Of a stretch of DNA of 36,749 nt, positions 20,207 through 35,187 are shown in pieces. Below the pieces are notes generated by a model, which saw nothing but the letters and a program-made list of their open reading frames with translations, was not told the origin of the DNA and did not search any database. The position numbers and the translations under genes were made by a program. Location of the stretch: assembly GCF_012927045.1 (NCBI RefSeq), contig NZ_JABBFW010000042.1, positions 1 through 36,749 of the forward strand, read 5' to 3'. Positions within the stretch are counted from its first letter, which is position 1. Each line of letters begins with the position of its first letter. This DNA is from Azohydromonas caseinilytica (GTDB lineage: Bacteria > Pseudomonadota > Gammaproteobacteria > Burkholderiales > Burkholderiaceae_C).

Positions 20207-22006
20207 TCAGCCGACGCGGATCACGCGCGGGTCGGCGGCATCGGCATACAGCGCCTCGACCTCGGCAGCGCGGCGCGCGATGACGGCACGCTGGTTGAGG
20301 TAGCCCTTGTCGGTGATCTCGCCGGCGGCGAGGCTGGCAGGCTCCTTGAGCAGCAGCACGCGGCCGGGTGACTGCGCCGAGCCGCCGGATTGCTCATGCA
20401 GCGCCTGCAGCTTCGCCTTCAGTTCCTCGCGCAACTGCTCGGGCGCCAGCGCCTCGGCCGCGGGCGTGAGGAACAGCAGCGCGCCAACCTGGTCGCGGTC
20501 GTGGCCGGTGATCACCGCGTCCTGCACCAGCGGCGCCAGCGCCGAGATGAGCTTCACCCGCAGCGTGCCCACCGACACCCAGGTGCCGCTGCCCAGCTTG
20601 AAATCTTCGGCGACCCGGCCGTCGAAGAGCACACCCTTTTCCGGATGCACCTCATCGACCAGCCGGCCCGCGTCGCCGATGCGGTAGAAACCTTCCTCGT
20701 CGAAAGCGGCGGCGCTGAGCTCGGGATCGTCGCGGTAGCCGGGGAACACGCCGGCGCCGCGCACGCGCATCTCCAGCTTCTGGCCGTTGGGCACGAACTT
20801 CAGCTCCGCGCCGGGCAGCGGGCCGCCGATGCAGCCCGCGCCGTCGAGCCGCCAGTGCGCGGACGTGACCGCGGGCGCGGTCTCGGTGGAGCCCCAGGAG
20901 GTGGTGAGCCACAGCGGCTCCGCGCGCACCCGCGCCGCCACGGCTTCGAGCCGCTTCCAGCTCGACGGCGCCAGCCCCGCGCCGGCATAGAACAGCACGC
21001 GCAGGCCCTCGAACATCCGGCGCGCCAGCGCCTCGTCCTGCTCCAGGTAGGGCAGCAGCATGTCCAGGCCGCGCGGCACGTTGAAGTGGATGTTGGCCTG
21101 CACCTCGCGCAGGTTGCGCACCGTGCGCTCGATCAGCCCGGGCATGGGGCGGCCGTCGTCGATGTAGAGCGTGCCGCCATGGCTGAGCACCATGTTGAAG
21201 TTGTGGTTGCCGCCGAAGGTGTGGCTCCAGGGCAGCCAGTCCAGCAGCACCGGCTTCTCGTGGTCCAGGAAGCGCCAGGCCTGGCTGATCATCTGCTGGT
21301 TGGCGCACAGCATGCGGTGGGTGTTGATGGCCACCTTGGGATGCCCGGTCGAGCCCGAGGTCAGCAGGTACTTGGCATGGTCCTCGGGCCGGATGGCGGC
21401 AAAGGCGCGCATCACCTCCGGGCCTTCGGCTTCGCTCACCAGGCTGTCGAAGGAGCGGGCGCCGGGCACTTCCTCGGCGCCGCGGCCCAGCACCACCACC
21501 GCGTCCACCTCCGCCGCGCGCAGCGCCGCGCCGTAGACGGCGGCGTCCGAGGCGTACACCAGCCCGGGCCGCAGCTTGTGCAGGATGCCGCGGATGCGGC
21601 TGAAATCCGGGCCCAGCCGGCTGTAGGCGCTGGACACCGTGCAGGCCGGGCGCCCTACGTGCATCGCGGCCAGCGCCAGCAGCGCGTGGTCCACCGAGTT
21701 GTCCGAGAGCACCACCACCGGCGCGCCGGGCGGCAGCTCCAGCGCCAGCAGGCCCTGCGCCAGGCGGCCGACGTGGCGCCGCACCTCGCCCCAGCTCAGC
21801 AGCCGCCAGCCGCCGGCGGCATCGCGCTCGGCCAGCGCCGGCGCCTCGGGCGTTTCCCTCGCCCAGTGCTCCAGCCATTCACCGATGCAGCGCACATGCG
21901 GGCGCAGCGGCTCGGGGGAGCGCAGCACGAAGCTGCCGTCGGCGCGCTGCTCGCGCAGCGCGCGCGGCGGGGCGAGCAGACGCTCGTCGTCGAAGAAGTG
22001 GGCCAT
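20207..22006 (-). CDS. Feruloyl-CoA-synthetase-like acyl-CoA ligase
   Basis: This 599-residue ANL-superfamily ligase forms acyl-CoA through an acyl-AMP intermediate. The ATP-binding motif YLLTSGSTGHPKVAINTH and the A5-like segment TTSWGSTETAP are clear, as is FDGRVAEDFKLGSGTWVSVG near the C-terminal hinge. The segments LDWLPWSHTFGGNHNFN and FDGRVAEDFKL resemble feruloyl-CoA synthetases and related aromatic acid ligases, so a phenylpropanoid or aryl acid is the likely substrate. This is an inference. The ATG has GAGGAGA 5 nt upstream. It is the first gene of the leftward catabolic cluster and is divergent from a TetR regulator. Confidence 0.88.
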   Translation of the reverse strand: MAHFFDDERLLAPPRALREQRADGSFVLRSPEPLRPHVRCIGEWLEHWARETPEAPALAERDAAGGWRLLSWGEVRRHVGRLAQGLLALELPPGAPVVVLSDNSVDHALLALAAMHVGRPACTVSSAYSRLGPDFSRIRGILHKLRPGLVYASDAAVYGAALRAAEVDAVVVLGRGAEEVPGARSFDSLVSEAEGPEVMRAFAAIRPEDHAKYLLTSGSTGHPKVAINTHRMLCANQQMISQAWRFLDHEKPVLLDWLPWSHTFGGNHNFNMVLSHGGTLYIDDGRPMPGLIERTVRNLREVQANIHFNVPRGLDMLLPYLEQDEALARRMFEGLRVLFYAGAGLAPSSWKRLEAVAARVRAEPLWLTTSWGSTETAPAVTSAHWRLDGAGCIGGPLPGAELKFVPNGQKLEMRVRGAGVFPGYRDDPELSAAAFDEEGFYRIGDAGRLVDEVHPEKGVLFDGRVAEDFKLGSGTWVSVGTLRVKLISALAPLVQDAVITGHDRDQVGALLFLTPAAEALAPEQLREELKAKLQALHEQSGGSAQSPGRVLLLKEPASLAAGEITDKGYLNQRAVIARRAAEVEALYADAADPRVIRVG

Positions 22007-22894: not shown

Positions 22895-24331
22895 TCAGGC
22901 CGTCGTGTCGCCCACCTCCGCCGCCAGCTCCAGCAGCTGCTCGGCGCTGGGCTTGTCCCAGCCCAGGCCGCGCGTGCCGTTGCCGTAGAAGCGGATGAAA
23001 TCCTGGATGAACAGCGAGTGCGTCCAGCCGCTGGTGTCGAAGCGCTTGAGCAGCGCCGAGCGCTTTTCGGCCAGGTGCTCGCGGAACTGGCGCTGCCAGT
23101 GGGCGCGTTCCGCGTCGGGCAGGGCCAGGATCTCCTGGCGCAGCGCCTCGCGGGCGCGGCGCAGCCACTCGTCGAGCCAGCGCGCCTGGCGCCGCGGCGC
23201 GTCCACGACCACGGCCGGCTTGGGGCGCGGCGCGGGCGCGGGCACCTCGGCCGGGGCGGCCTTCTTGAGCACACCCGGCAACACCGCACGCAGGTAGCGC
23301 CCGGGGTTCTGGACCGGGTCCACCACGCCCGGCGGCAGCGCGGCGCGCTTGTGCAGGCTGTCCAAGCCCGCGCTCAGCGCCTCGGGGCCGAACTCCTGCA
23401 GCAGCCGCTCGGCGTCGTCCTGCTTCACGCCGGCATCGATGGCGCGGCCGATGAGCGGCAGGTCCACCGGCTCCAGCTCGCGCTCGCGCACGGCGGGCCG
23501 GCTGGCGGCGCTGCGCGCCGTCTTCTTGCGCACCACGGCGAACTGGATCTGCTCGATGGTCTTGTTGTCAGCGCCCTTGTGCTCCACCGGGCCGCGCACC
23601 TCGATGTCGGACAGCGCGTTGATCTCGGCGATGGCCGGCGCCAGCACGTCGCGCTTGAAGTAGCGGTACTGGGGCGGCTTCTTGGCGGGGTCATCCTGCT
23701 GCCCGGTGAGCACCGGGCGCCACCAGCGCCAGTGCTGGCGCGCGGTGAGGTGGCTGGGGTTGTCGATGTAGCGCACGCAGATCTCGTACAGCGCCATGGC
23801 GGCATGGCTGCGCAGCTGCGTCACCACGTCCAGCGCGATGCGGGCGTAGCGGTCGGGGCCCATCAGCTGCTCGCGGATCTGCGGCGAGTAGGACCACTCG
23901 ATGGTGATGGCGCCGCTCTTGCGGTTCTTGATCAGCTTGCAGCCGGCCAGCAGCGTGGACGCCTCCCAGACGTCGAACTCGCCGGACGTGGGGCTCTGCC
24001 ACTCCACGACGGTGCCCATGAGCTGCTTGAGCGTCTTCTTCAGCAGCTCGTAGTTGTTCGAGTCGAAGCGCGAGAGGTTGATGATTTCGCTCAGCGGCGC
24101 GCTGTAGATGTCCTTGCCGCTCTGGCGCTGCGCCACGTGCAGCAGCACGTTGAAGGAACGCCGCGCCAGCAGCGTGATCTTGCGGTCGCGCGGCATCAGC
24201 GCCACGGCGTTGACGTGCTTGCGCACGACCTCGGCGCAAGCCGGGCTGTCGTCCTCGTCGAACAGGGCAGGTTGGCTGGGCATCCCGGCATGGTAGGCGA
24301 TCACGTGAGTGAGCATGCTGTCAAAGCTCAC
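22895..24331 (-). CDS. Replication initiator protein, Rep_3 superfamily
   Basis: This 478-residue initiator is expected to bind the iterons upstream of it and open the origin. The two winged-helix domains span about residues 48-190 (including SEIINLSRFDSNNYELLKKTLKQLMG and YSPQIREQLMG..YARIALDVVTQLRSHAAMALYEICVRYI) and about 195-270 (YRYFKRDVLAPAIAEINALSDIEV). The length exceeds the usual 250-350 residues of Rep_3 proteins, because a C-terminal part of about 200 residues, partly Pro/Ala-rich, follows. The GTG at 24331 is the longest start, but in-frame ATG codons 5 and 16 codons later are possible and none has a clear ribosome-binding site. Dispersed iterons lie just upstream of the start, so autoregulation is likely. 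Confidence 0.9.
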   Translation of the reverse strand: MSFDSMLTHVIAYHAGMPSQPALFDEDDSPACAEVVRKHVNAVALMPRDRKITLLARRSFNVLLHVAQRQSGKDIYSAPLSEIINLSRFDSNNYELLKKTLKQLMGTVVEWQSPTSGEFDVWEASTLLAGCKLIKNRKSGAITIEWSYSPQIREQLMGPDRYARIALDVVTQLRSHAAMALYEICVRYIDNPSHLTARQHWRWWRPVLTGQQDDPAKKPPQYRYFKRDVLAPAIAEINALSDIEVRGPVEHKGADNKTIEQIQFAVVRKKTARSAASRPAVRERELEPVDLPLIGRAIDAGVKQDDAERLLQEFGPEALSAGLDSLHKRAALPPGVVDPVQNPGRYLRAVLPGVLKKAAPAEVPAPAPRPKPAVVVDAPRRQARWLDEWLRRAREALRQEILALPDAERAHWQRQFREHLAEKRSALLKRFDTSGWTHSLFIQDFIRFYGNGTRGLGWDKPSAEQLLELAAEVGDTTA

Positions 24332-24362
24332 ATGTCCGTCACGCCCGCGAGACAGTGTTGCC

Positions 24363-24638
24363 TACCAAATTTCCTCACATGCGCAGGGCGCCGGCCTGGC
24401 CGCGCGTGGCAACCGGCGCGGGGCTTACCAAATCCGCTCACGTACCTTTCGCGCCACCCCGGTTCGCATCCGGGGCCAGTGCACGGCAGCCACTACCAAA
24501 AGCTCTCACCTGTGGTCCGCGGTCGCGTTGTCGGGCTGGGCACTGGACCGCTACCAAATTCCCTCACCTGTTTGAGCCAGCGGTGGAAGGACGGGGCAGT
24601 CGCGGAAGCAGCACAGCCTTCCCAAAACTTCTCACGTG
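24363..24638 (+). repeat. Five dispersed iterons (58-68 bp apart)
   Basis: Direct copies at 24363-24381, 24426-24444, 24494-24512, 24552-24570 and 24620-24638. The first four read TACCAAA-N4-CTCAC (the N counts the variable bases after CCAAA), and the fifth reads TCCCAAA. They lie next to the rep start and may serve copy control and rep autoregulation rather than opening. Confidence 0.85.
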
Positions 24639-24771
24639 TGAGGCCGGACTTGCATGCGCAGGCGCCTGGGCTTGCTGATACCGGCGCATCGGCATGCGGC
24701 GAGCCGCTGAGCGGGGTCGCAGGCGGCGCCGAACCGGGCGCATGAGGGTCGGGCAACACGGGCGCGCGCGG

Positions 24772-24791
24772 TTCGTGAGTGCATTTGGGAA
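24772..24791 (-). repeat. Single inverted iteron
   Basis: The minus strand reads TTCCCAAATGCACTCACGAA, a full match to the iteron motif. It lies between the dispersed and tandem groups and faces the tandem array. Confidence 0.8.
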
Positions 24792-24822
24792 GGGTGTCGA
24801 CCCTGGCGGGCCAATGAGAACG

Positions 24823-24930
24823 TTCCCTTATCCCCTCACCTGCCTTCCCAAGACGCCTCACCTTCGTTCCCACAAGCGCTCACGCACGTTCCCAAAACGG
24901 CTCACCCACGCTCCCAAAACACCTCACGCG
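24823..24930 (+). repeat. Tandem iteron array, five copies at exactly 22 bp
   Basis: Copies start at 24823, 24845, 24867, 24889 and 24911, each of the form TTCCCAAAA-N-CTCAC (the last begins C instead of T; the first has CTTAT in place of CAAAA). A 22-bp period places the copies on one face of the DNA, as in classic Rep-binding iteron arrays. The AT-rich stretch starts 10 bp after the array. Confidence 0.92.
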
Positions 24931-24988
24931 TTTGCAGCTAAGTGGTTGTCACGTATAAGAAAAGTCGAGGCCAAAGGTATTAAAGGGT

Positions 24989-25196: not shown

Positions 25197-26378
25197 ATGA
25201 GCACGAATACGGCGACGCTGGCCCCCCAGACGCTGTCCGATGTGATGGACCAGGCGGACCGTTCGGGTCTGCTGATGAGCCGGGTGCGCAGCGCCATGCT
25301 GTCGCCCACATCCCGCAAGCGGCCCCCGGTGTACAGCAGCGGGCAGCTCGGCGCGATCTGCGGCCTGGACCGCAACCAGGTGGCCTACCGGATTCAAAAG
25401 GGCGACCTGCCCACGGGCCGCGTCAGCGGCAACGGCCGGCGCGAGTTCTCGCTGGCGGACGTGCAGGCCTGGTCTCGGGCCTATCGAGCCGGCGCGATGC
25501 GGCCCGAGGGCGCGGAGGCGGTGGCGGTGGTGCTGGCCAACTTCAAGGGCGGGGTGGGCAAGACCACCACCGCCATGTCCGTGGCCCAGGGTCTGAGCCT
25601 GCGCGGGCACCGCGTGCTGGCCGTGGACTGTGATCCGCAGGGTTCCCTGACCACGCTGTTCGGCATCCTGCCCGACACCGAGGTGGAAGACGAGCAGACC
25701 ATCCTGCCGCTGTGCGTGGGCGCGGAGACCTCGCTGCGTAGCGCCATCCGCCCCAGCTACTGGAGCGGCGTGGACCTGGTGGCCGCGGCGCCGCTGCTGT
25801 TCGGCGCCGAGTTCTCGCTGCCCTCGCGCCAGCAGACCGAGGACGACTTCGAATTCTGGAACGTGCTCAACGTCGGCCTGGACGAGGTGCGCGACGAGTA
25901 CGACGTGATCGTGATCGACACGCCGCCCTCGCTGTCCTACGTGACCATCAACGCGCTGATGGCCGCCAACGGGCTGCTGATGCCGCTGCCGCCCAACGCG
26001 CTGGACTTCGCTTCGGCGTCCCAGTTCTGGCGCCTGTTCTCCGACCTGGCCGGCCAGCTGGTCGAGCAGCGCGGCGTGGGCAAGGAGTTCGACTTCATCC
26101 GCGTGCTGCTCACGCGCGTGGACAGCAGCGACTCCACCACCACCGTGGTGCGTGACTGGATCGGCCAGGCCTACGAGGGCAAGGTCATGCCGGTGGAGAT
26201 TCCCAAGACCGCGGCCGCGGCGTCCGCCGCGGCCGAGTTCGGCACGATCTACGACGTGGGCAAGTACGACGGCAACGCCCGCACCTACAAGCGTGCCGCC
26301 GAGGCCTACGAGAAGGTGACCGAGCTGGTGGAGCAGCTGATCCAGGCTACCTGGCTGCGTAAGACCACTGCGGCCTGA
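25197..26378 (+). CDS. parA: Partition ATPase ParA (type Ia, N-terminal helix-turn-helix)
   Basis: This 393-residue protein is the Walker-type ATPase that moves ParB-bound replicon copies over the nucleoid. Residues about 44-97 (SSGQLGAICGLDRNQVAYRIQKGDLPTGRV..EFSLADVQAW) form a MerR-like winged helix-turn-helix. The deviant Walker A is KGGVGKTTT (117-125), the A' motif is VDCDPQGS (143-150), and Walker B is YDVIVIDTPPSLSY. The N-terminal DNA-binding domain marks the plasmid/chromid type Ia ParA, which also represses its own operon. It forms an operon with parB, with a 19-nt gap. Confidence 0.95.
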   Translation: MSTNTATLAPQTLSDVMDQADRSGLLMSRVRSAMLSPTSRKRPPVYSSGQLGAICGLDRNQVAYRIQKGDLPTGRVSGNGRREFSLADVQAWSRAYRAGAMRPEGAEAVAVVLANFKGGVGKTTTAMSVAQGLSLRGHRVLAVDCDPQGSLTTLFGILPDTEVEDEQTILPLCVGAETSLRSAIRPSYWSGVDLVAAAPLLFGAEFSLPSRQQTEDDFEFWNVLNVGLDEVRDEYDVIVIDTPPSLSYVTINALMAANGLLMPLPPNALDFASASQFWRLFSDLAGQLVEQRGVGKEFDFIRVLLTRVDSSDSTTTVVRDWIGQAYEGKVMPVEIPKTAAAASAAAEFGTIYDVGKYDGNARTYKRAAEAYEKVTELVEQLIQATWLRKTTAA

Positions 26379-26397: not shown

Positions 26398-27399
26398 ATG
26401 ACCAAGAAGATTGCCGAGAAGTCCAAGCTGGTGAACCTGCTCCCCGATCCGGAGCCCCCGATGGCCCCGCCCGCCGCGGTGGACGACGGGCTGGGGCAGC
26501 GCAAGGCCTACACCGGCGTAGGGCAGATGATGGGCGTGCTGGGCCGCTCCAGCCCGCTGGGCAAGGAGCTGGCGGAAGTGAAGGCTCGGCTGCGCGAGTA
26601 CGAGGGCAGCGTGCCGCTGAAGCTGCTGGACCCGCGCACCATCACCCGCAGCCGCCTGGCCAACCGGCATGAGTCCGAATTCGAGTCGGAGGATTTCGCG
26701 CGGCTCAAGGGCGAGATTGAGCATGCCGGCGTCAACGTGCAGCCGGTGAAGGTGCGCCCGCTGGAGCCGCCGCGCGATGGGGTGCAGTACGAACTGGTGT
26801 TCGGCCACCGCCGGCACCGCGCCTGCCTGGAGCTGGGCGTGCCGGTGCTGGCCATGATCGAGAGCGTCAGCGACAAGCTGATGTGGCTGACCATGGACCG
26901 TGAGAACCGGGAACGGCGCAACCTCTCGCCCTGGGAGCAGGGCCAGAGCATCCAGCGCGCGTTGCAGGCCGGGTTGTTCAGCTCGATCCGGCGCCTGGCC
27001 GAGGAGTCGGGCATGGACCACAGCAACGCCGCCAAGGCGCTGCGGCTGGCGGAGCTGCCGGCGGCGGTGGTAGCGGCCTTCAACTCACCGGCCGACATCC
27101 AGCTGCACTGGGCCCGCCCGCTGTCCGAGGCGCTGCAGCAGGACCCGGAAGGGGTGCTGGCCCGTGCCAAGAGCATGGCCGCCCGGGGTACCGTACCACG
27201 GGCCCCGAAGGCCGTGCTGGACGAGCTGTTGGGTCACTCGCAAGCGCGCGGTGTGGCCGACAAGCGCCAGTTGAAGAAGGATGGCAAAACGGTGGCCGTG
27301 CTGTCGCAGAAGGCCGGTGGTGGCTTGGCCATCGAGATCCGCCAGCCGGTGGACATGGGGGAGGTGGAAAGCCTCCTCAAGAAGCTGCTGCGGCTGTAG
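26398..27399 (+). CDS. parB: Centromere-binding protein ParB
   Basis: This 333-residue partition protein binds parS and spreads using its CTPase fold. The N-terminal domain has NVQPVKVRPL (113-122) and FGHRRHRA (135-142), the variant of the GERRxRA CTP-binding motif found in plasmid-type ParBs, followed by ENRERRNLSPWEQG (169-182). The central helix-turn-helix is about 194-220 (SIRRLAEESGMDHSNAAKALRLAELP). Residues beyond about 280 form the C-terminal dimer part. The ATG has GGGAGAG upstream. A copy of the palindrome proposed as parS (27185-27199) lies inside its coding sequence, at codons for ARGTVPRA. Confidence 0.94.
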   Translation: MTKKIAEKSKLVNLLPDPEPPMAPPAAVDDGLGQRKAYTGVGQMMGVLGRSSPLGKELAEVKARLREYEGSVPLKLLDPRTITRSRLANRHESEFESEDFARLKGEIEHAGVNVQPVKVRPLEPPRDGVQYELVFGHRRHRACLELGVPVLAMIESVSDKLMWLTMDRENRERRNLSPWEQGQSIQRALQAGLFSSIRRLAEESGMDHSNAAKALRLAELPAAVVAAFNSPADIQLHWARPLSEALQQDPEGVLARAKSMAARGTVPRAPKAVLDELLGHSQARGVADKRQLKKDGKTVAVLSQKAGGGLAIEIRQPVDMGEVESLLKKLLRL

Positions 27400-28937
27400 C
27401 CGGCCCTGGCTTCTGAAACTCCGGAGCAGGGCGGGGTACCGTACCACCGAGCCTTGGGCGGCCAAGCATCCCGCCGGCTCGGGACGCCTGCCGGCGCGCA
27501 GGCCCGGTCTGCCGTGGTCTCGTACCACACATCGATGCCGGCCAGGGCGCCGGGCGGTGCCGCGCACTACAGCCTCGCCGACACCTTGGTGCCGGTCCGC
27601 GCGTGCTGGCCGAGCCGGCGCTCCAGGGGGCGCGAATGACGTGAGGTACCGTACCACGGGGTCAAGGGCGGCGGCGGCCGGACCGTCGCCTTGCAATCCC
27701 TGCCAAGGCCACTAACGGCCTGGGCCCCGCTCCGGACCGCAGTCCCAGACTGCCTGGCGCAAGGCCGCACCGTCGGCCCCAGGGCGCCTCTCGCTGTACT
27801 GCTTAGGCGCCTGAGTACCGGCCGCGCGGAGCGGCTTGGCGGTGCAGCAGGTCCTGCTTGCCGCTCCCGACGGCAGAGTCGATCAGCGGGCGCCCGAGGT
27901 TCCCCTTCGAGCGGGACGCCATTCGGTCTGAGCCGATCTCATCCTTGGACTGCGAGGACCGGGCCACGGACGCGCCCGTTCGAGGGCCAAATGGTGCGGC
28001 ATGGGCGCCGCACTCTCCGCCCGGTCCATGTGGTCTGCACGGCTCGGTGAGCGCCTGGTCGCTGGTCATCGTGTCGCCAGCGGCAACGCTTGGCATCGGC
28101 AGCGTACAGGCAGGGCCCAGAGGCATCGAGCCACCGTCTGTACGGCGCCGCCACACGCACCAATGGCTGGCATCTGGTCACTTAGGCGGACGGCGGCCCC
28201 GGCTTGGCGGGCACAGGGCATCGAGGGGAGGTTGGATGCGACCTTTACCGGCTCTCGTACAACAGGTCCGCTGGATCAGGGGTTGAGGCCGACGGGCCCG
28301 CCAACGATGCGGGGGCAGGGCGACCAGCGGGGTTTCAACGAGGCCCATGAACCGGGGTGTGGTCCCGTACCACGCTCTTGAATTGGTCAGGTCCCGGAGC
28401 GCCAGCGTGAAGCTGTGAGATTCGGTCCACTGATCGGGGTGCGCCCACAGGGCGAGCGGGTGAATACAGCCGGCGGCCGGGATGGCTGCCCGGCTGTGGC
28501 CAGGATCGCCCGCTGCACGGCGTTCGCGGCGATCGGCGTTCCGTTGGAAGGGCGACGCGTCGAAGCTTGTACCGTCTGCCGTTCCAGTCACGCCTCTTGG
28601 TCAAGACGCGACTCCAGGCCAATTCCACACCACCGGTCCGCAGCGCCCCTTACCCCGTGTCCCAAACGGCGGCCAGGGCGCTTGCAGGCGACGACACCCA
28701 TGCTGCACTGCACCGACAAGGGCGCTTTGGACCCGCTGTGCGCAATCCCCGGCCACTTGTCTGCGCCGCCGTCGCGAGTCGCTTCACGTACTCCGCATGC
28801 CGACGCCGGTAGGTCCGCCGCGTCTGTGCCTGGCATCGTGCCGGCCGCCTGGACTTGCCCGAGCCAGCCCTGCCGTCGTGGCTATGGGTCATGCCGGCGT
28901 TGCTTCGCCCGCCACAGATGCCGAGGTACCGTACCAC
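27185..28937 (+). repeat. Six parS-like palindromes, consensus GTGGTACCGTACCAC
   Basis: Copies are at 27185-27199, 27433-27447, 27514-27528, 27643-27657, 28359-28373 and 28923-28937. The right half CGTACCAC is identical in all six. The left half varies only at positions 2, 6 and 7 (GGGGTAC, GTGGTCT, GAGGTAC, GTGGTCC). The motif is an odd palindrome centred on C. Copies begin inside parB and continue through the non-coding DNA downstream, all in the same orientation. Clustering beside parAB makes them the candidate centromere. The assignment is inferred. Confidence 0.75.
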
Positions 28938-29163
28938 GCCCCATCCGGCCACGTGATCCATGCCAAGCGCCGGGACCGGGGCAGTCCGTCGAATACGGCC
29001 GTGTTCCAGCCGAGCGCGTGGTCGATCCCAAGTCACGGAACAAGACGCCGTCGCCACACCAGGCCGAATCGATCCCGCCTGGAAGCACCGCCGCGGACCG
29101 AAATAATGGCGGCCTCGCCGGAGCGTCAGGACGCTCCTCGTACAACCTTCATGGAGGCGCCAC
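27400..29163. other. 1.76-kb non-coding partition-site region
   Basis: No frame in this stretch looks like a protein: the open frames are compositionally odd and carry no motifs. It holds five of the six parS-like palindromes, and at its right end an inverted repeat and the ribosome-binding site of the next gene. It probably serves as a centromere and ParB-spreading zone rather than as coding DNA. Confidence 0.6.
29121..29138. promoter_or_regulatory. Perfect palindrome upstream of the ModA-like gene
   Basis: GGAGCGTC and GACGCTCC (8-bp arms, 2-bp centre) end 25 bp before the start codon. Position and symmetry suggest an operator. The AT-rich AATAAT at 29103-29108 may be part of the promoter. 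Confidence 0.45.
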
Positions 29164-29853
29164 ATGTCATCCCCCATCCGCATCATTTCGTCCATGGCCA
29201 CCAAGCAGCTGCTGGCTGATCTGGTCGCCCAGTTCCAGCAGTCTTCCGGCCAGCAGGTCAATGTCGAATCGGTCGGCGGCGTCGATGCCGCCAAGCGCGT
29301 GCAGGCCGGTGAGGCCTTCGACGTGGTGATCCTGGCGTCCAACGCCATTGACCAGCTTGCCCAGGCCGGCAAGGTGGTCGCGGGCAGCCGCAGCGACCTG
29401 GTCCGCTCCGGCGTGGCCGTGGCCGTGCGTGCCGGCGCGCCGCACCCGGCCATCAGCTCGGAAGAAGCCGTCAAGCAGGCGGTGCTGGCGGCTCCCAGTC
29501 TGAGCTACTCCACCGGGCCCAGCGGTGTTGCCCTGGTCAAGCAGTTCGAACGCTGGGGCATCGCGGAGCAGATCAAGGACCGCATCGTGCAGGCGCCCCC
29601 GGGCGTGCCGGTGGGATCGCTGGTGGCCAAGGGCGAGGTGGCCTTGGGCTTTCAGCAGCTCAGCGAGCTCATCCACCTGCAAGGCATCGATGTGGTCGGG
29701 CCGCTGCCGCCTTCGATCCAGGTCACCACCATCTTCTCCGCCGGGGTGGCTGCCACCTGCGCTCAGCCCGAGGCTGCGCGCCGGCTCATCGAGTTCCTGA
29801 CTTCGCCGGCGGCCCAAGCGGCCAAGGTGCGCAACGGCATGGAACCAGCCTGA
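29164..29853 (+). CDS. ModA-like substrate-binding protein without signal peptide
   Basis: This 229-residue type II periplasmic-binding-protein fold resembles ModA, the molybdate receptor. Features are SSMATKQLLADLVAQFQQSSG at the N-terminus, GGVDAAKRVQAGEAFDVVILASNAIDQLAQAGKVV, and GVALVKQFERWGIAEQIKDRI..VASLVAKGEVALGFQQLSEL-type sequence (VGSLVAKGEVALGFQQLSEL here). There is no signal peptide: the fold begins about five residues after the ATG, which has GGAGG 5 nt upstream. No modB or modC lies nearby. It may be a cytoplasmic solute sensor or enzyme-like relative rather than an importer receptor. It lies alone between two long non-coding stretches. Confidence 0.82.
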   Translation: MSSPIRIISSMATKQLLADLVAQFQQSSGQQVNVESVGGVDAAKRVQAGEAFDVVILASNAIDQLAQAGKVVAGSRSDLVRSGVAVAVRAGAPHPAISSEEAVKQAVLAAPSLSYSTGPSGVALVKQFERWGIAEQIKDRIVQAPPGVPVGSLVAKGEVALGFQQLSELIHLQGIDVVGPLPPSIQVTTIFSAGVAATCAQPEAARRLIEFLTSPAAQAAKVRNGMEPA

Positions 29854-31257: not shown

Positions 31258-32055
31258 TCAGCGGCTCAAGGCCGCACGCGTGTGCTGCGCGCACACGAAG
31301 CGGCCGCTGCGCTGGTCGAAATCCCAGCGCTCCACGCAGCAATGGGCCGCCAGGGCCGCACTCTCATGCCGCAGCACATTGACCGAATTCGGCTGCTCGC
31401 TGCGCACGCGGTGCGAGATCGAAGTGCCGGCCTGGACGATCCAGATGGCCCGGGCGCCCATGTCCACACGATCACAGCGCGGTCGGTGCGTGTGGCCGCC
31501 CAGGATCACATCCACGCCCGCCTGGGCCCAGGTGGACAGCGCGTTGCGGGGGCAACGCAGGCGGTGGCCGAGGTCGCAGGCGTCGAGGGGCTGCAGCGGC
31601 TGGTGGGTCGCCACCACCCGCAGTTGTCGCGGCGACGCCTGGCGCAGGCGCTGTGCCACGCGCTCCACCTGCGCCGGGGACAGCTCGCCATGCTTGTGGC
31701 GCCAGCGCCGCGTGGTCTTGACCAGCAGCAGCAGCAGATCTTCGCGTTCAAGCTCGGGCTCCAGCTCCGTGCCGAAGGCGCGCCGGTAGTTGGCATAGGG
31801 CCGCACCAGGCGGTCCACCAGGTTGTAGAGCGGGATGTCGTGGTTGCCGGGCATTGCCACGGTCTGGGCTCCGGGCAGCGAGTCGGCGAAGCGCCGGGCC
31901 GCGCTGAACTGCTCGCGGCGTGCCCGTTGCGTCAGGTCGCCCGTCCAGACCACCACGTCGGGGCGCTCCTGGAGGGCCAGTTGCCGCAGGGCATCGCGCA
32001 CCGCCGGGATCTCGGCGCCGAAATGGGCGTCCGACACCTGCAGCAGCACGCTCAT
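31258..32055 (-). CDS. Metallophosphoesterase (calcineurin-like)
   Basis: This 265-residue phosphoesterase has the full metal-binding set: DAHFG near residue 9, TGDLTQ, GNHDIP, THQPL and GGHTHRP. Such enzymes use two metal ions to split phosphodiesters or phosphomonoesters; the relatives are 3',5'-cAMP and glycerophosphodiester phosphodiesterases. The true substrate is not evident. Its ATG overlaps the stop of the upstream lipid-kinase gene (ATGA), so the two are translationally coupled. That suggests a shared role in lipid or phosphoester turnover. The frame continues upstream only as an overlap with that gene. Confidence 0.88.
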   Translation of the reverse strand: MSVLLQVSDAHFGAEIPAVRDALRQLALQERPDVVVWTGDLTQRARREQFSAARRFADSLPGAQTVAMPGNHDIPLYNLVDRLVRPYANYRRAFGTELEPELEREDLLLLLVKTTRRWRHKHGELSPAQVERVAQRLRQASPRQLRVVATHQPLQPLDACDLGHRLRCPRNALSTWAQAGVDVILGGHTHRPRCDRVDMGARAIWIVQAGTSISHRVRSEQPNSVNVLRHESAALAAHCCVERWDFDQRSGRFVCAQHTRAALSR

Positions 32056-33038
32056 GCCGTGCTTTCGGGGGCGGTGGACAGCAACTGCAGCGGTGTCGGG
32101 GACACGGTGAAGGTCAGCGGGGTGTGCAGCCACAGCACCTCGCCGTCGATGGCGGCTTGCAGCCGGCGCGCCCGGCGCCCGATGCCGGGCGACACCGTCA
32201 GGCGGCGGAAAGCGAAATCCACCGCATTGCTGGCCTCGGCCAGACGGCCCAGCGCGCCGCGCAGGGCCAGGCCCAGCATGCCGAGGCGGCCCACGGGCCG
32301 CACCATCACCGCCGCCAGCGCGCCCGCGCCGGCGGCGGCGGCTTCCGGCAGCCCCAACTGCTCCACCTGCAGACGGTTGTTGCTCACGAACAGGGTGGCG
32401 GTTCGCACCGTGACGCTGCGGTCGCCCAGCTCCAGCTCCAGCGTCCATTCATGGTGATGGCGCAGGATCGTGCCCAGCGCGGCCAGCATGGCGTTGAAGC
32501 GATAGCGTCCGAACTGACGCTTGAAGGCCTCGCGGTCCTGCAGCAACTGCGGATACAGCCCGAGGCTGGCATTGACCAGGAACACGCGGTCGTTGAGCAG
32601 CCCCACCTGCACCGGACGGGGCCGGGCGGCCAGCAGCTGCCGCGCCGCTTCCTCGGTGTCGGTGGCAAGGCCGTGCGAGCGCGCGAAGTAATTGAAGGTG
32701 CCCTGCGGCACCACGCCCATTGGGCGGCCCGTGGGCAATACCGCCTGGGCCAGGGTGTTGAGCGTGCCGTCGCCGCCGGCCGCCACCACGGCACCGCTGT
32801 GCGTCACCGCCCAGTCCACCGCGTGCGCGGCTACCTCCTGTGGCGAATGCTCCTCGTCGATGCGCCAGATCTCATGGCGACGGCCCGCTTCGAGCATCAC
32901 CCGCCGCAGGGTCTCGATGCGCGCTTGTGTTTCCTGGTGGCCCGAGCCGCAGTTGACGACGATGGCCAGCGGCATCTCGGCGTTGTTGCTACTGCCGGCA
33001 GTGACCGCCGGCCGGGCGAATTCCGCAGCCGTTTGCAT
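32052..33038 (-). CDS. Diacylglycerol-kinase-like lipid kinase
   Basis: A DAGK-catalytic-domain protein of about 328 residues (YegS/DgkB-like) that phosphorylates diacylglycerol or a related lipid at the membrane face. Key segments are PLAIVVNCGSGHQ at the start of the fold, AAGGDGTLNTLAQAVL (the GGDGT nucleotide motif), GVVPQGTFNYFARSHGL and AIDGEVLWLHTPLTF at the end. Three starts are possible: GTG at 33116, ATG at 33038 (used) and ATG at 32975. None has a clear Shine-Dalgarno, and the conserved domain begins right after the last one. Overlap with the phosphoesterase gene indicates an operon. Confidence 0.85.
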   Translation of the reverse strand: MQTAAEFARPAVTAGSSNNAEMPLAIVVNCGSGHQETQARIETLRRVMLEAGRRHEIWRIDEEHSPQEVAAHAVDWAVTHSGAVVAAGGDGTLNTLAQAVLPTGRPMGVVPQGTFNYFARSHGLATDTEEAARQLLAARPRPVQVGLLNDRVFLVNASLGLYPQLLQDREAFKRQFGRYRFNAMLAALGTILRHHHEWTLELELGDRSVTVRTATLFVSNNRLQVEQLGLPEAAAAGAGALAAVMVRPVGRLGMLGLALRGALGRLAEASNAVDFAFRRLTVSPGIGRRARRLQAAIDGEVLWLHTPLTFTVSPTPLQLLSTAPESTA

Positions 33039-33393
33039 GACGCAGCCAAGGCAACCGGCGTACCCGGCAGGGACGACGGCGGATTCGTCGGTCTTGACGC
33101 TTTCCGGGCACAGCACCCAGAAGGGTTGGGACAGACAGCAATTTGAAGCGCCTGACTTTGAGCCTTACCAGGACTGAAAAATGAAGCGGGTAGTCACATA
33201 TGGGACATATGGGGGGCTGCCGGTGTGAGTGCGCGTGCCGGGTATTTCCCTCCTGTCCAATTGCGCTCAGCTGCTTACCAAGTGATTCGGGCGATACATG
33301 CCGGCACAAGCAGACGTTAAGGCATGGGGTTTGTTCTGCATTAAATCATGCGCAAAGTGCAGTAAAGCCGCCGCCTCGTTGGGAGGTCGCCTT
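33039..33393. other. 355-bp divergent spacer with a tandem 9-mer
   Basis: This is the spacer between the lipid kinase (minus) and the oxidase lipoprotein (plus). Two exact tandem copies of ACATATGGG lie at 33196-33213. The part after about 33290 is more AT-rich than the flanking genes. No clear promoter pair is recognisable. Part of the left end would be coding if the kinase starts at 33116. Confidence 0.4.
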
Positions 33394-35187
33394 ATGTGCA
33401 ATTCTCCGGGCCTGTATTCCATGCATTTACGTGAATTAATGATGTCGGCGTCGCGCAACGGCGTGTCCCGCAATACTTTCTCGGTTCTGGCGCTCGCCGC
33501 GCTCGCCGCTTGTGGCGGGGGCGAATCGGTCACGGTCTCGCCCGAGGATCCTGCGGCCATGGACATCGCCGAAGACGATGTCGAGGCACCGGTCGATTTC
33601 GGCAGTGGCCCGGTCGCCGCGGCCGGGGCAGTGACCGAAACCATCAAGGCACTGGCTGCCGCTGGCGAGCTCAATGCCTCCTACAAGCCCCAGAGCACCA
33701 CCCGAGCCGCGTATACCGCCGGTGCCTTCGGACCTGCCTTTGCCTGGCCCATCATTCCGTTGCACATGGTCCAATTGCCCGATGGCCGCGTACTGGCCTA
33801 TGGCAGTGACGACAAGGGCGCGCAGGGAGCCAAGCTGCACTATTCGGTCTGGGATCCAAACTGGAATCCTTCGGCACCGGGCGCGGATGCCTCGGCCTTC
33901 CAGTTGCTTTCGAACACCACGGGCACCGACCTGTTCTGCAATACCCAACTGGTACTCCCAAGCAATGGCCAGGTGTTCATGGCCGGCGGCGACCGTATCG
34001 TGAACGGAATACGCAATTACGCCGTCGCGGACACGAATTTCTTCAACCCGGCGGACAATTCACTGCGCAAGGAGCCTGGCTCGATGGCCTACCGGCGGTG
34101 GTACGGGACGGCCATCACCACGCAGCGTGGCGAGGTGGTGGTCATGGGCGGACGGGATGACCGCTATTACGCGGGCACGAGCACCAAGCCGGCCACCGCA
34201 GCCACATATTCGCCGATTCCCGAAATCTATGTGCCGGGCAGCGGGTGGCGCACATTATGGGGTGCGCGCAGCGACGCGGCTTTTGGAGAGATCAAAGGCA
34301 ATTGGTGGTATCCGAAGTCTTTTCTGACACCTAACGGCAAGATCCTGACCATCACCAACGACGGTTATTTCTATTCGCTCGACCCGGCTGGCAGCGGCTC
34401 GATCACCAAGCTCAACGGCAAACTCCAGGGGACGAACTACAACACGACCTCCGTGATGTATGCGCCCGGCAAAATCTTGTCCATCCGAAACACGACGCAG
34501 GCCGCATTGATTGACGTCAACGGCGCGCAACCCGTCATCCGCATCACCGCGCCGACGAGCACCGGGCGCAAATGGGGATTTTCTACGGTCCTGCCCGATG
34601 GGACGGTCTGGCTCAATGGTGGCTCGCGCAACGCCAATACGCTGGCCGACGCGGTCTATACCAGCGAGCTCTGGAATCCGGCCACTGAGAAGTGGACCAT
34701 GACGGCAACGGCTACCAAGCCGCGCCTCTATCACGGCAACTCGATGCTCCTGCCCAGCGGTGCAGTGGTTACAGGTGGCGGCGGAGCTCCGGGCCCGGTG
34801 CGAGGGCTGAATGCCGAGGTGTATTTCCCGCCGTACTTCTTCAACCCGGACGGTACCTGGGCGACGCAGCCGGTGATCGATTCCGTCTCGCCACGCAACT
34901 TCGGCTGGAGCGACACCTTCACGCTGCAGATGGGCACCTGGGCCACGATCGACAAGGTGGTGATGATCCGTACGGGCTCCTCCACCCATTCCTTCAGTAA
35001 CGAGCAGCGCCGCATGGAACTGCCGTTCACGCAAACAGGGCGTACGGTCACGATCACCGCCCCGGCCCGCGCCACCGAAATGCCGCCGGGCTACTACATG
35101 GTGTTCGCGCTGAAGAAGAATCCCCGTGCGCTTGCCGGAGACACGCGTCTGGTGCCCTCGGAGGCCAAGATCGTCAAGCTGTCCTGA
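33394..35187 (+). CDS. Copper-radical oxidase lipoprotein (galactose/glyoxal oxidase family)
   Basis: This 597-residue protein has a lipoprotein signal (ALAALAAC, lipidated Cys40), a kelch beta-propeller and a C-terminal DUF1929 Ig-like domain (ITAPARATEMPPGYYMVFALKK). All metal and radical residues of galactose oxidase have counterparts: Cys182 (DLFCNTQL) for the Tyr-Cys cofactor, Tyr237 (RRWYG), Tyr446 and His447 (RLYHG), and His532 (SSTHS). It should oxidise an alcohol or aldehyde to aldehyde or acid with release of H2O2, at the outer surface or in the periplasm. The start at 33394 is chosen because GGGAGG is at 33381-33386; ATGs at 33421, 33439 and 33442 lack one. The substrate is unknown. 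Confidence 0.88.
   Translation: MCNSPGLYSMHLRELMMSASRNGVSRNTFSVLALAALAACGGGESVTVSPEDPAAMDIAEDDVEAPVDFGSGPVAAAGAVTETIKALAAAGELNASYKPQSTTRAAYTAGAFGPAFAWPIIPLHMVQLPDGRVLAYGSDDKGAQGAKLHYSVWDPNWNPSAPGADASAFQLLSNTTGTDLFCNTQLVLPSNGQVFMAGGDRIVNGIRNYAVADTNFFNPADNSLRKEPGSMAYRRWYGTAITTQRGEVVVMGGRDDRYYAGTSTKPATAATYSPIPEIYVPGSGWRTLWGARSDAAFGEIKGNWWYPKSFLTPNGKILTITNDGYFYSLDPAGSGSITKLNGKLQGTNYNTTSVMYAPGKILSIRNTTQAALIDVNGAQPVIRITAPTSTGRKWGFSTVLPDGTVWLNGGSRNANTLADAVYTSELWNPATEKWTMTATATKPRLYHGNSMLLPSGAVVTGGGGAPGPVRGLNAEVYFPPYFFNPDGTWATQPVIDSVSPRNFGWSDTFTLQMGTWATIDKVVMIRTGSSTHSFSNEQRRMELPFTQTGRTVTITAPARATEMPPGYYMVFALKKNPRALAGDTRLVPSEAKIVKLS

Follow-up and report, generated by a model that had tools for sequence, protein, structure and literature searches.

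Clustered 15-bp odd palindromes as the probable parS centromere of a rep-parAB module in Azohydromonas caseinilytica, with a specificity that looks largely readable from ParB

The parAB locus and its six 15-bp sites

The stretch of DNA analysed here (the window; 36,749 nucleotides, contig NZ_JABBFW010000042.1 of Azohydromonas caseinilytica, NCBI RefSeq assembly GCF_012927045.1) carries a rep-parAB module in which a gene for a Walker-type ParA ATPase adjoins a gene for a ParB with ParB_N and helix-turn-helix (HTH) domains, and six related 15-bp sites lie in and behind the parB frame (Table 1). Both the gene arrangement and the clustered palindromic sites near parAB are those by which a type I ParABS partition system is recognised. 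Sequence comparison makes it very probable that the six sites serve the adjoining ParB as its parS, forming a ParABS centromere.

Scanning of the window with GTGGTACCGTACCAC at no more than 2 mismatches returned the six sites and nothing else, with spacings of 248, 81, 129, 716 and 564 bp, and a limit of 3 mismatches added a single match (34098, minus strand). Counted strand-wise, the limit of 3 mismatches gave 13 matches where 0.53 were expected; the maximum in 100 shuffles was 5. The consensus of the six is a 15-bp odd palindrome, GTGGTAC-C-GTACCAC, whose right half (CGTACCAC) is invariant in all six sites while the left halves vary (GGGGTAC twice, GAGGTAC twice, GTGGTCT and GTGGTCC); none is a perfect palindrome and all share one orientation. 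The positions, spacing, invariant half and common orientation claimed in an earlier note on this DNA were thus reproduced, as was its statement that the window holds no further full copy. Its placing of the sites beyond parB in non-coding DNA was checked for two of the open reading frames (ORFs) that overlap 27281–29326, neither of which has a Pfam match. When 14-bp, 16-bp and inner 13-bp palindromes were scored alongside the 15-bp form, the 14- and 16-bp forms reached 4.1, 5.3 and 6.2 in the window and the 15-bp spacing 16.9.

Table 1. Features of the partition locus (window coordinates)
Feature	Coordinates	Strand	Basis or remark
parS-type site 1, GGGGTACCGTACCAC	27185..27199	+	within 3' part of parB; motif scans of window and genome
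parS-type site 2, GGGGTACCGTACCAC	27433..27447	+	downstream of parB; motif scans and palindrome search
parS-type site 3, GTGGTCTCGTACCAC	27514..27528	+	downstream of parB; motif scans and palindrome search
parS-type site 4, GAGGTACCGTACCAC	27643..27657	+	downstream of parB; motif scans and palindrome search
parS-type site 5, GTGGTCCCGTACCAC	28359..28373	+	downstream of parB; motif scans and palindrome search
parS-type site 6, GAGGTACCGTACCAC	28923..28937	+	downstream of parB; motif scans and palindrome search
parB, 333 aa, ParB_N and SoPB_HTH	26398..27399	+	PF02195, PF18090 and TIGR00180 above cut-off
ParB codons D207 H208 S209 N210, N-terminus of recognition helix, proposed specificity tetrad	27016..27027	+	top columns for p4, p2, p3 and p5
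parA, 393 aa, Walker-type ATPase with N-terminal extension	25197..26378	+	PF13614 and PF01656 from residue 111
Rep3-type replication initiator	22895..24331	-	PF01051 and PF21205 above cut-off
Iteron-like direct repeats in the rep–parA interval, CCAAA..CTCAC	24357..24931	+	repeat families D1, D3 and D4

The whole genome (98 contigs) has six matches at up to 1 mismatch. Five of them belong to the window and the other lies on contig C24 (GTGGTACCGCACCAC); the sixth window site is 2 mismatches away from the pattern used for this search. At exactly 2 mismatches there were further places on contigs C1 (one), C16 (three) and C57 (three), of which those on C16 and C57 are the motifs of two other ParBs. 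The 15-mer is therefore clustered at parAB and not spread evenly over the genome. The same motif also stands alongside the orthologues of the window ParB (84–89% identical) in three other Azohydromonas genomes, so that the motif recurs, as the earlier note had asked to be checked, beside orthologous parB genes of the genus. Measured from where the parB match ends, a site lies equally far away at locus L052 as site 1 does in the window, and so does one at L087–L090, there as a perfect palindrome (loci are numbered with the prefix L throughout).

The window ParB has a predicted fold matching KorB, Noc and ParB, with KorB as the best match, and in its AlphaFold2 model the recognition helix spans residues 208–218 (mean predicted local distance difference test score 95–96 over residues 201–220). 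Residues G136, R138, R139, E169, N170 and R171 are invariant in 20/20 and 25/25 aligned ParBs; these G-x-RR and ENR residues we take to be the CTP-binding site of the ParB clamp. ParA matches TIGR03453 over residues 20–388 with a score under the model cut-off. The iteron-like repeats are probably part of a replication origin. Downstream of the sites lies a gene for an SBP_bac_11 solute-binding protein (29164–29853), and the same contig carries genes for a metallophosphatase (31258–32448), a galactose-oxidase-like protein (33298–35187) and an AMP-binding enzyme (20207–22006).

Eight paralogous ParBs, each with its own motif

The window genome encodes eight paralogous ParBs at E < 1e-50, in addition to two weak matches, and a Rep3_N match is present on all eight parB contigs, on seven of them less than 3 kb away from the parB gene; the match on contig C29 scores below the family cut-off. 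A search for recurring palindromes around parB, which uses no ParB residue information and accepts a motif at a log10 score of at least 9, found distinct 15-bp motifs at all eight loci, with the half-sites GTGGTAC (window), GTTGTAC, GTGGGAC, GTTGAAC, GCTAGAC, GTTCTAC, GGTGGAC and GGAAACC. Genome-wide searches covered six of the eight motifs, including that of the window (GTTGTAC and GTGGGAC were met only as near-matches), and all six proved nearly confined to their own parB locus: for the five besides the window's, 6/6, 4/4, 4/4, 4/5 and 7/8 places at up to 1 mismatch were at the cognate locus. Three other genomes of the genus have 10–12 such ParBs each (E of 1e-40 or better).

A family of 15-bp palindromes in relatives

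Across four Azohydromonas genomes, a 15-bp odd palindrome reached the threshold at 37 of 41 parB loci, adding half-sites such as GCAAGAC, GCTTTAC, TTTCAAC, GTTGGAC and GATTGAC; L062 has two sites of its relative's motif, both below threshold, and the gene at L057 lies near a contig end. Beyond these, the threshold was reached at 70 of 80 named loci and at 45 of 66 new distinct loci, against 1 of 213 shuffled loci and none of seven control stretches (largest score 8.8). In all, 155 de-duplicated parB loci, mostly of Burkholderiales, had an accepted 15-bp palindrome, with 39 half-sites among them; the earlier note had recognised neither this range of motifs nor its link to ParB residues. At the chosen cut-offs, relatives occur in at least 7 of 300 genomes sampled at the level of the order and in at least 65 of 399 at that of the family (counting the window genome), both being lower bounds since few candidates per genome were scored.

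With the bases of the half-site numbered p1 to p7 from the outside inwards, 102 de-duplicated loci had G as the first base in 96 cases, A at p6 in 91 and C as the last base in 101, giving a prevailing frame of G-NNNN-AC-S-GT-NNNN-C. Of the symmetric sites with AC at p6–p7, 322 of 329 had G or C as the central base; of those with CC there, 62 of 74 had A or T. Sites at up to 1 mismatch numbered 511 at 146 loci: 325 downstream of the parB match, 94 within 1 kb before its end and 92 farther upstream.

The spacing was not uniform throughout. An even form at threshold outscored the 15-bp form at four of 172 loci (L140, L158, L202 and L244); the even palindromes of L158 and L244 look like other repeats. 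The Variovorax ParB at L140 has a 16-bp palindrome (half GTGGTTC) in place of the 15-bp one, and from its tetrad, DPSN, the two-residue table described below gives TGGT for p2–p5, suggesting that spacing may change without a change in the half-site code. Clear 16-bp sites (GTTCACCCGGGTGAAC) were found in Caballeronia L262 and L271. The inner 13 bp outscored the 15 bp at L094, L099, L108, L113, L117 and L118 because the outermost base varies there. At pMOL28 (L272), which has a published partition region, ParB is of another kind and no such 15-bp motif was found. In the named plasmids of L256, L257, L258 and L267, an integrase gene lies just past parB and its sites.

Association of ParB residues with half-site bases

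Rules connecting four helix residues with bases 2–5 were first drawn up by inspection of the 41 Azohydromonas loci. The motifs of the 80 named loci had been listed by then, and their ParBs were aligned afterwards. In a scan of 230 ParB columns over the 102 loci, the top column was 208 for p2, 209 for p3, 207 for p4, 210 for p5 and 236 for p6. Among the 155 accepted loci, Asp207 accompanied G4 in 107/107, Asn210 accompanied T5 in 43/43, Asp210 G5 in 26/26, Gln208 A2 in 8/8 and Ser208 C2 in 5/5. The tetrad 207–210 aligns with Caulobacter ParB residues 172–175 (174 and 175 by counting on). In published work on chromosomal ParB and Noc, Arg173 of Caulobacter ParB reads G1 and Gln173 of Noc reads A1 (PMC7383237), with which the pairing of Gln208 and A2 is in keeping. 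ParB sequence thus appears largely to predict the site.

Prediction of sites at new loci

The training set comprised 102 loci (121 minus 5 duplicates and 14 below threshold). The residue-to-base table was frozen, 92 further loci were then fetched, 26 already-seen ParBs were removed, and of the remaining 66 distinct loci the 21 below threshold were set aside, leaving 45 test loci. One of these, L245, has a GC-rich motif judged spurious by eye, and was kept in the 45 and dropped from the sets of 44 and 155. The frozen table was correct at 39 (p2), 24 (p3), 42 (p4) and 41 (p5) of the 45, compared with 28, 16, 27 and 26 for a majority guess and 37, 38, 41 and 36 for the nearest relative. Where the nearest training relative had another base, the frozen table was correct in 21 of 24 cases (21 of 28 with L245 included).

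Base 3 needs a second residue besides 209. A two-residue table, learnt from the training loci only and taking p3 from residues 209 and 212 and p5 from 206 and 210, was correct at 39, 43, 42 and 42 of 44 loci for p2 to p5 and at all four bases in 34, and in 22 of the 24 cases where the nearest training relative differs. A p2–p5 combination new relative to training occurred at six of the 44 loci, of which L211, L236 and L247 were fully predicted by the two-residue table and two of these also by the frozen table; the half-sites so predicted were GTTTTAC and GATTAAC (frozen table) and GTTGCCC (two-residue table). A further combination unseen in training, GTAGTAC of plasmid pPNAP04, was predicted in full by the two-residue table.

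Unchanged, the two-residue table was applied to nine named plasmid loci, where it was correct at 8 (p2), 8 (p3), 7 (p4) and 6 (p5) and abstained at 1, 1, 0 and 3, respectively; full matches were obtained in Cupriavidus metallidurans, Aquabacterium olei, Polaromonas naphthalenivorans and Rhodoferax antarcticus. Sixteen such loci had been fetched and nine used, among which L263 and L264 are near-alike; omitted were L260 (identical to L259), L261 and L270 (below threshold), L262 and L271 (16 bp), L265 (sole motif 16-bp-spaced) and L266, whose 15-bp GACCCGG motif is above threshold but belongs to a gammaproteobacterial locus and has another frame. The two-residue table was also used to look for sites at 37 loci without an accepted motif: its predicted site occurred at up to 1 mismatch in 14 of them and in 9 of 648 control pairs. 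It missed those listed for L160, L207 and L214 because it is wrong there at p2 or p3.

Orientation of the sites

The uniform direction of the window sites is shared within their clade: at four window-type Azohydromonas loci the downstream half was intact in 25 of 26 sites, the upstream half in one, and no site was symmetric. Over the 18 listed loci with the GTGGTAC motif the corresponding counts were 35, 1 and 25 (one of the 25 having equal imperfections in its two halves). In the remaining motif groups symmetric sites prevailed, and two groups were uniformly asymmetric: at L240 and L242, tandem GATGCGCGGTGCATC repeats (GATGCAC) lie about 37–38 bp apart behind parB, with 21 pointing one way, and at L135 four GTAGGAC sites run in the opposite direction. 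The asymmetric sites outside these two groups split 22 against 35. A naturally asymmetric parS, in five repeats, has been described in Ralstonia pickettii 12J (PMC5450999).

A polar centromere in the window clade, with a direction that would serve ParB loading or sliding, seems unlikely to us. The plainest account, and one we regard as somewhat probable, is that the direction is a by-product of copying one half-decayed founder site in direct orientation: the left halves fall into few types, and the asymmetric sites of most other groups have no common direction. Such copying would sit less easily with the flanks of the six window sites, which are scarcely more alike (mean similarity 0.315) than random region pairs (0.291), and with a number and spacing of sites that vary between species.

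Alternative explanations and points against the proposed reading

We strongly favour the reading that the sites are the parS centromere of the rep-parAB module and that ParB specificity is set mainly by the tetrad 207–210, in agreement with the earlier note's proposal of a new parS-type centromere: this draws support from the clustering at parAB, recurrence beside orthologues, the specificity of the sites for one of the eight paralogues and the joint change of motif and recognition helix. The sites might instead be operators of another protein, serving ParA autoregulation or the Rep initiator, with ParB binding elsewhere; the N-terminal extension of ParA could bind DNA, and a Rep3 initiator and iterons are close by. 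That bases 2–5 track residues of the ParB recognition helix, and that 325 of the 511 sites lie downstream of the parB match, speak against operators, and we consider this explanation very improbable. A subtler alternative accepts the sites as parS and attributes the residue-base link to shared ancestry, other parts of ParB setting the specificity. Motif and ParB clade are indeed strongly linked, the nearest relative predicts the motif well, and supported independent contrasts are few; the frozen table was nevertheless correct in 21 of 24 cases where the nearest relative's base differs (L245 left out). When the tree was built from columns outside the HTH, at least 16 (p2), 18 (p3), 15 (p4) and 21 (p5) base changes were required, and counting on the best tree over all branches, irrespective of support, residue and base changed the same way in 9.3 of 11 (Asp207/G4), 12 of 12 (Asn210/T5), 6 of 8 (Asp210/G5), 5 of 6 (Gln208/A2), 5 of 6 (Ser208/C2), 4 of 4 (His208/G2), 12.4 of 17 (Gly209/T3), 4 of 7 (Thr209/A3) and 1.8 of 2 (residue 236/C6) independent pairs, the mean for opposite changes being 0.0. 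Of five mismatched residue-base combinations, four showed no link and one, T at p5 with Gly209, did. In 77 closest-pair contrasts the mapped column ranked first of 187 for p2, p3 and p5 and third for p6. Mere shared ancestry therefore strikes us as improbable, if less so than the operator explanation.

Several observations nonetheless weigh against parS sites read mainly through the tetrad. No binding test of any ParB in the set was found in the sources covered, and 10 of the 80 named and 21 of the 66 new distinct loci were below threshold. The loci are related, and well-supported branches yield only 1–4 independent pairs per test among the tests listed, too few for significance; in the closest-pair contrasts the mapped column for p4 ranked only ninth of 187. 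With all four bases required, the nearest relative was correct at 27 of 45 loci against 19 for the frozen table (majority guess 3), and the two-residue version was selected after the failure at p3 was known. For the class to which the window belongs (His208 with Ser209) the frozen table gives G at p2 where T is observed; this class accounts for five of its six p2 errors, L245 being the sixth. Single residues are also ambiguous: in the 155 loci, Ser209 accompanies G (37), T (40) or A (1) at p3, His208 accompanies G (27) or T (12) at p2, and Ser207 accompanies A, G, T or C at p4, and the code does not hold at Rhodanobacter L266. The available portions of PMC7383237 name residues 170–173, 178, 201, 204 and 162 of Caulobacter ParB as contacts. 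Residues 174 and 175 are not among them, and base 1 is the one read by residue 173, whereas the aligned tetrad residue tracks base 2; the odd spacing might explain this one-base shift. These differences in contacts and base numbering lowered our confidence slightly, and it remains high.

Proposed mechanism and implications

In the mechanism proposed, each HTH of a ParB dimer would recognise one half-site (G-p2-p3-p4-p5-A-C), and a single base pair at the dyad between the halves would make the site an odd 15-bp palindrome. Residue 207 would pair with p4, 208 with p2, 209 (with 212) with p3, 210 (with 206) with p5 and 236 with p6. ParB would nucleate at parS, load as a CTP clamp, spread, and then be moved by ParA so as to segregate the replicon. 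Co-resident paralogous ParBs appear to have diverged in tetrad and sites together, which would give each replicon a private centromere. Taken over the family, the data point to a large radiation of such private centromeres, with ParB sequence apparently sufficient to read most of their specificity, and we think it probable that the code is near-modular, with about one helix residue per base, so that specificity would be predictable and possibly rewritable.

Knowledge of ParB specificity and of coexisting partition systems rests on few characterised pairs. The present set offers one genome with eight paralogous pairs in addition to a chromosomal parS, and 39 half-sites with a simple residue-to-base table, which would allow parS to be predicted from ParB sequence and help to explain the compatibility of secondary replicons in Burkholderiales; with such a code, a bacterium that carries many DNA molecules could keep these separate. 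The family would also supply candidate orthogonal ParB-parS pairs for DNA labelling, for which a recent three-colour tool uses one natural pair, one engineered pair and their hybrid site (PMC11798528).

Comparison with known partition systems

The system is of a known kind, ParABS, in a 15-bp variant that we did not find described: no 15-bp odd parS family with a residue-base table was found among the best-ranked papers of searches that covered the main texts of openly licensed papers, and a full-text literature search for six 15-mers of the family returned no paper. Single 15-bp sites of this family may already be in print, as a paper on Polaromonas plasmids lists putative parS sites in its supplement (PMC6015842).

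Among Burkholderiales, the closest comparison is with the Bsr ParABS systems of Burkholderia cenocepacia c3 and pBC and of the Ralstonia pickettii 12D and 12J plasmids (PMC5450999), which are likewise plasmid-type, with palindromic parS and replicon-specific pairs; a parS inside parB is also known in B. cenocepacia (PMC4948915). The Bsr parS, however, is a 16-bp palindrome with a central CG and narrow cognate specificity (PMC5450999), whereas the window family is 15 bp with an odd centre; the earlier note had likewise set its sites apart from the parS of Burkholderia secondary chromosomes. No residue-base table for Bsr systems was found in the available portions of PMC5450999.

With chromosomal parS the family shares a half-site frame, G....AC resembling GTTTCAC (PMC7383237), and, as in chromosomal ParB and Noc, the start of the same helix would set part of the specificity (Arg173 with G1, Gln173 with A1; PMC7383237). 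The chromosomal site is even (TGTTTCACGTGAAACA), and the sites differ from it as the earlier note had said: chromosomal TGTTNCACGTGNAACA is absent from the parAB locus and, at up to 1 mismatch, was found at three places in the window genome, all on contig C1. The chromosomal ParB-parS and Noc-NBS comparison concerns two sites and four scattered residues (173, 179, 184 and 201; PMC7383237), against 39 half-sites and the tetrad 207–210 here.

The repABC systems are similar in that ParA resembles RepA (below cut-off) and several compatible systems occur per cell, and differ in site length and centre and in the neighbouring initiator, which here is of Rep3 type. The window ParB scores 76 bits against the RepB equivalog TIGR03454 (cut-off 201.5), and the six 15-bp sites misfit the 16-bp repABC consensus GTTNNCNGCNGNNAAC (PMC9040568). 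At the level of the protein, the HTH matches the HTH family of SopB of F, and KorB of RK2 is the top match of the fold model. The KorB operator is itself an odd palindrome, of 13 bp. Unlike KorB and SopB, the present family combines 15-bp sites with a radiation of paralogues and a co-varying tetrad.

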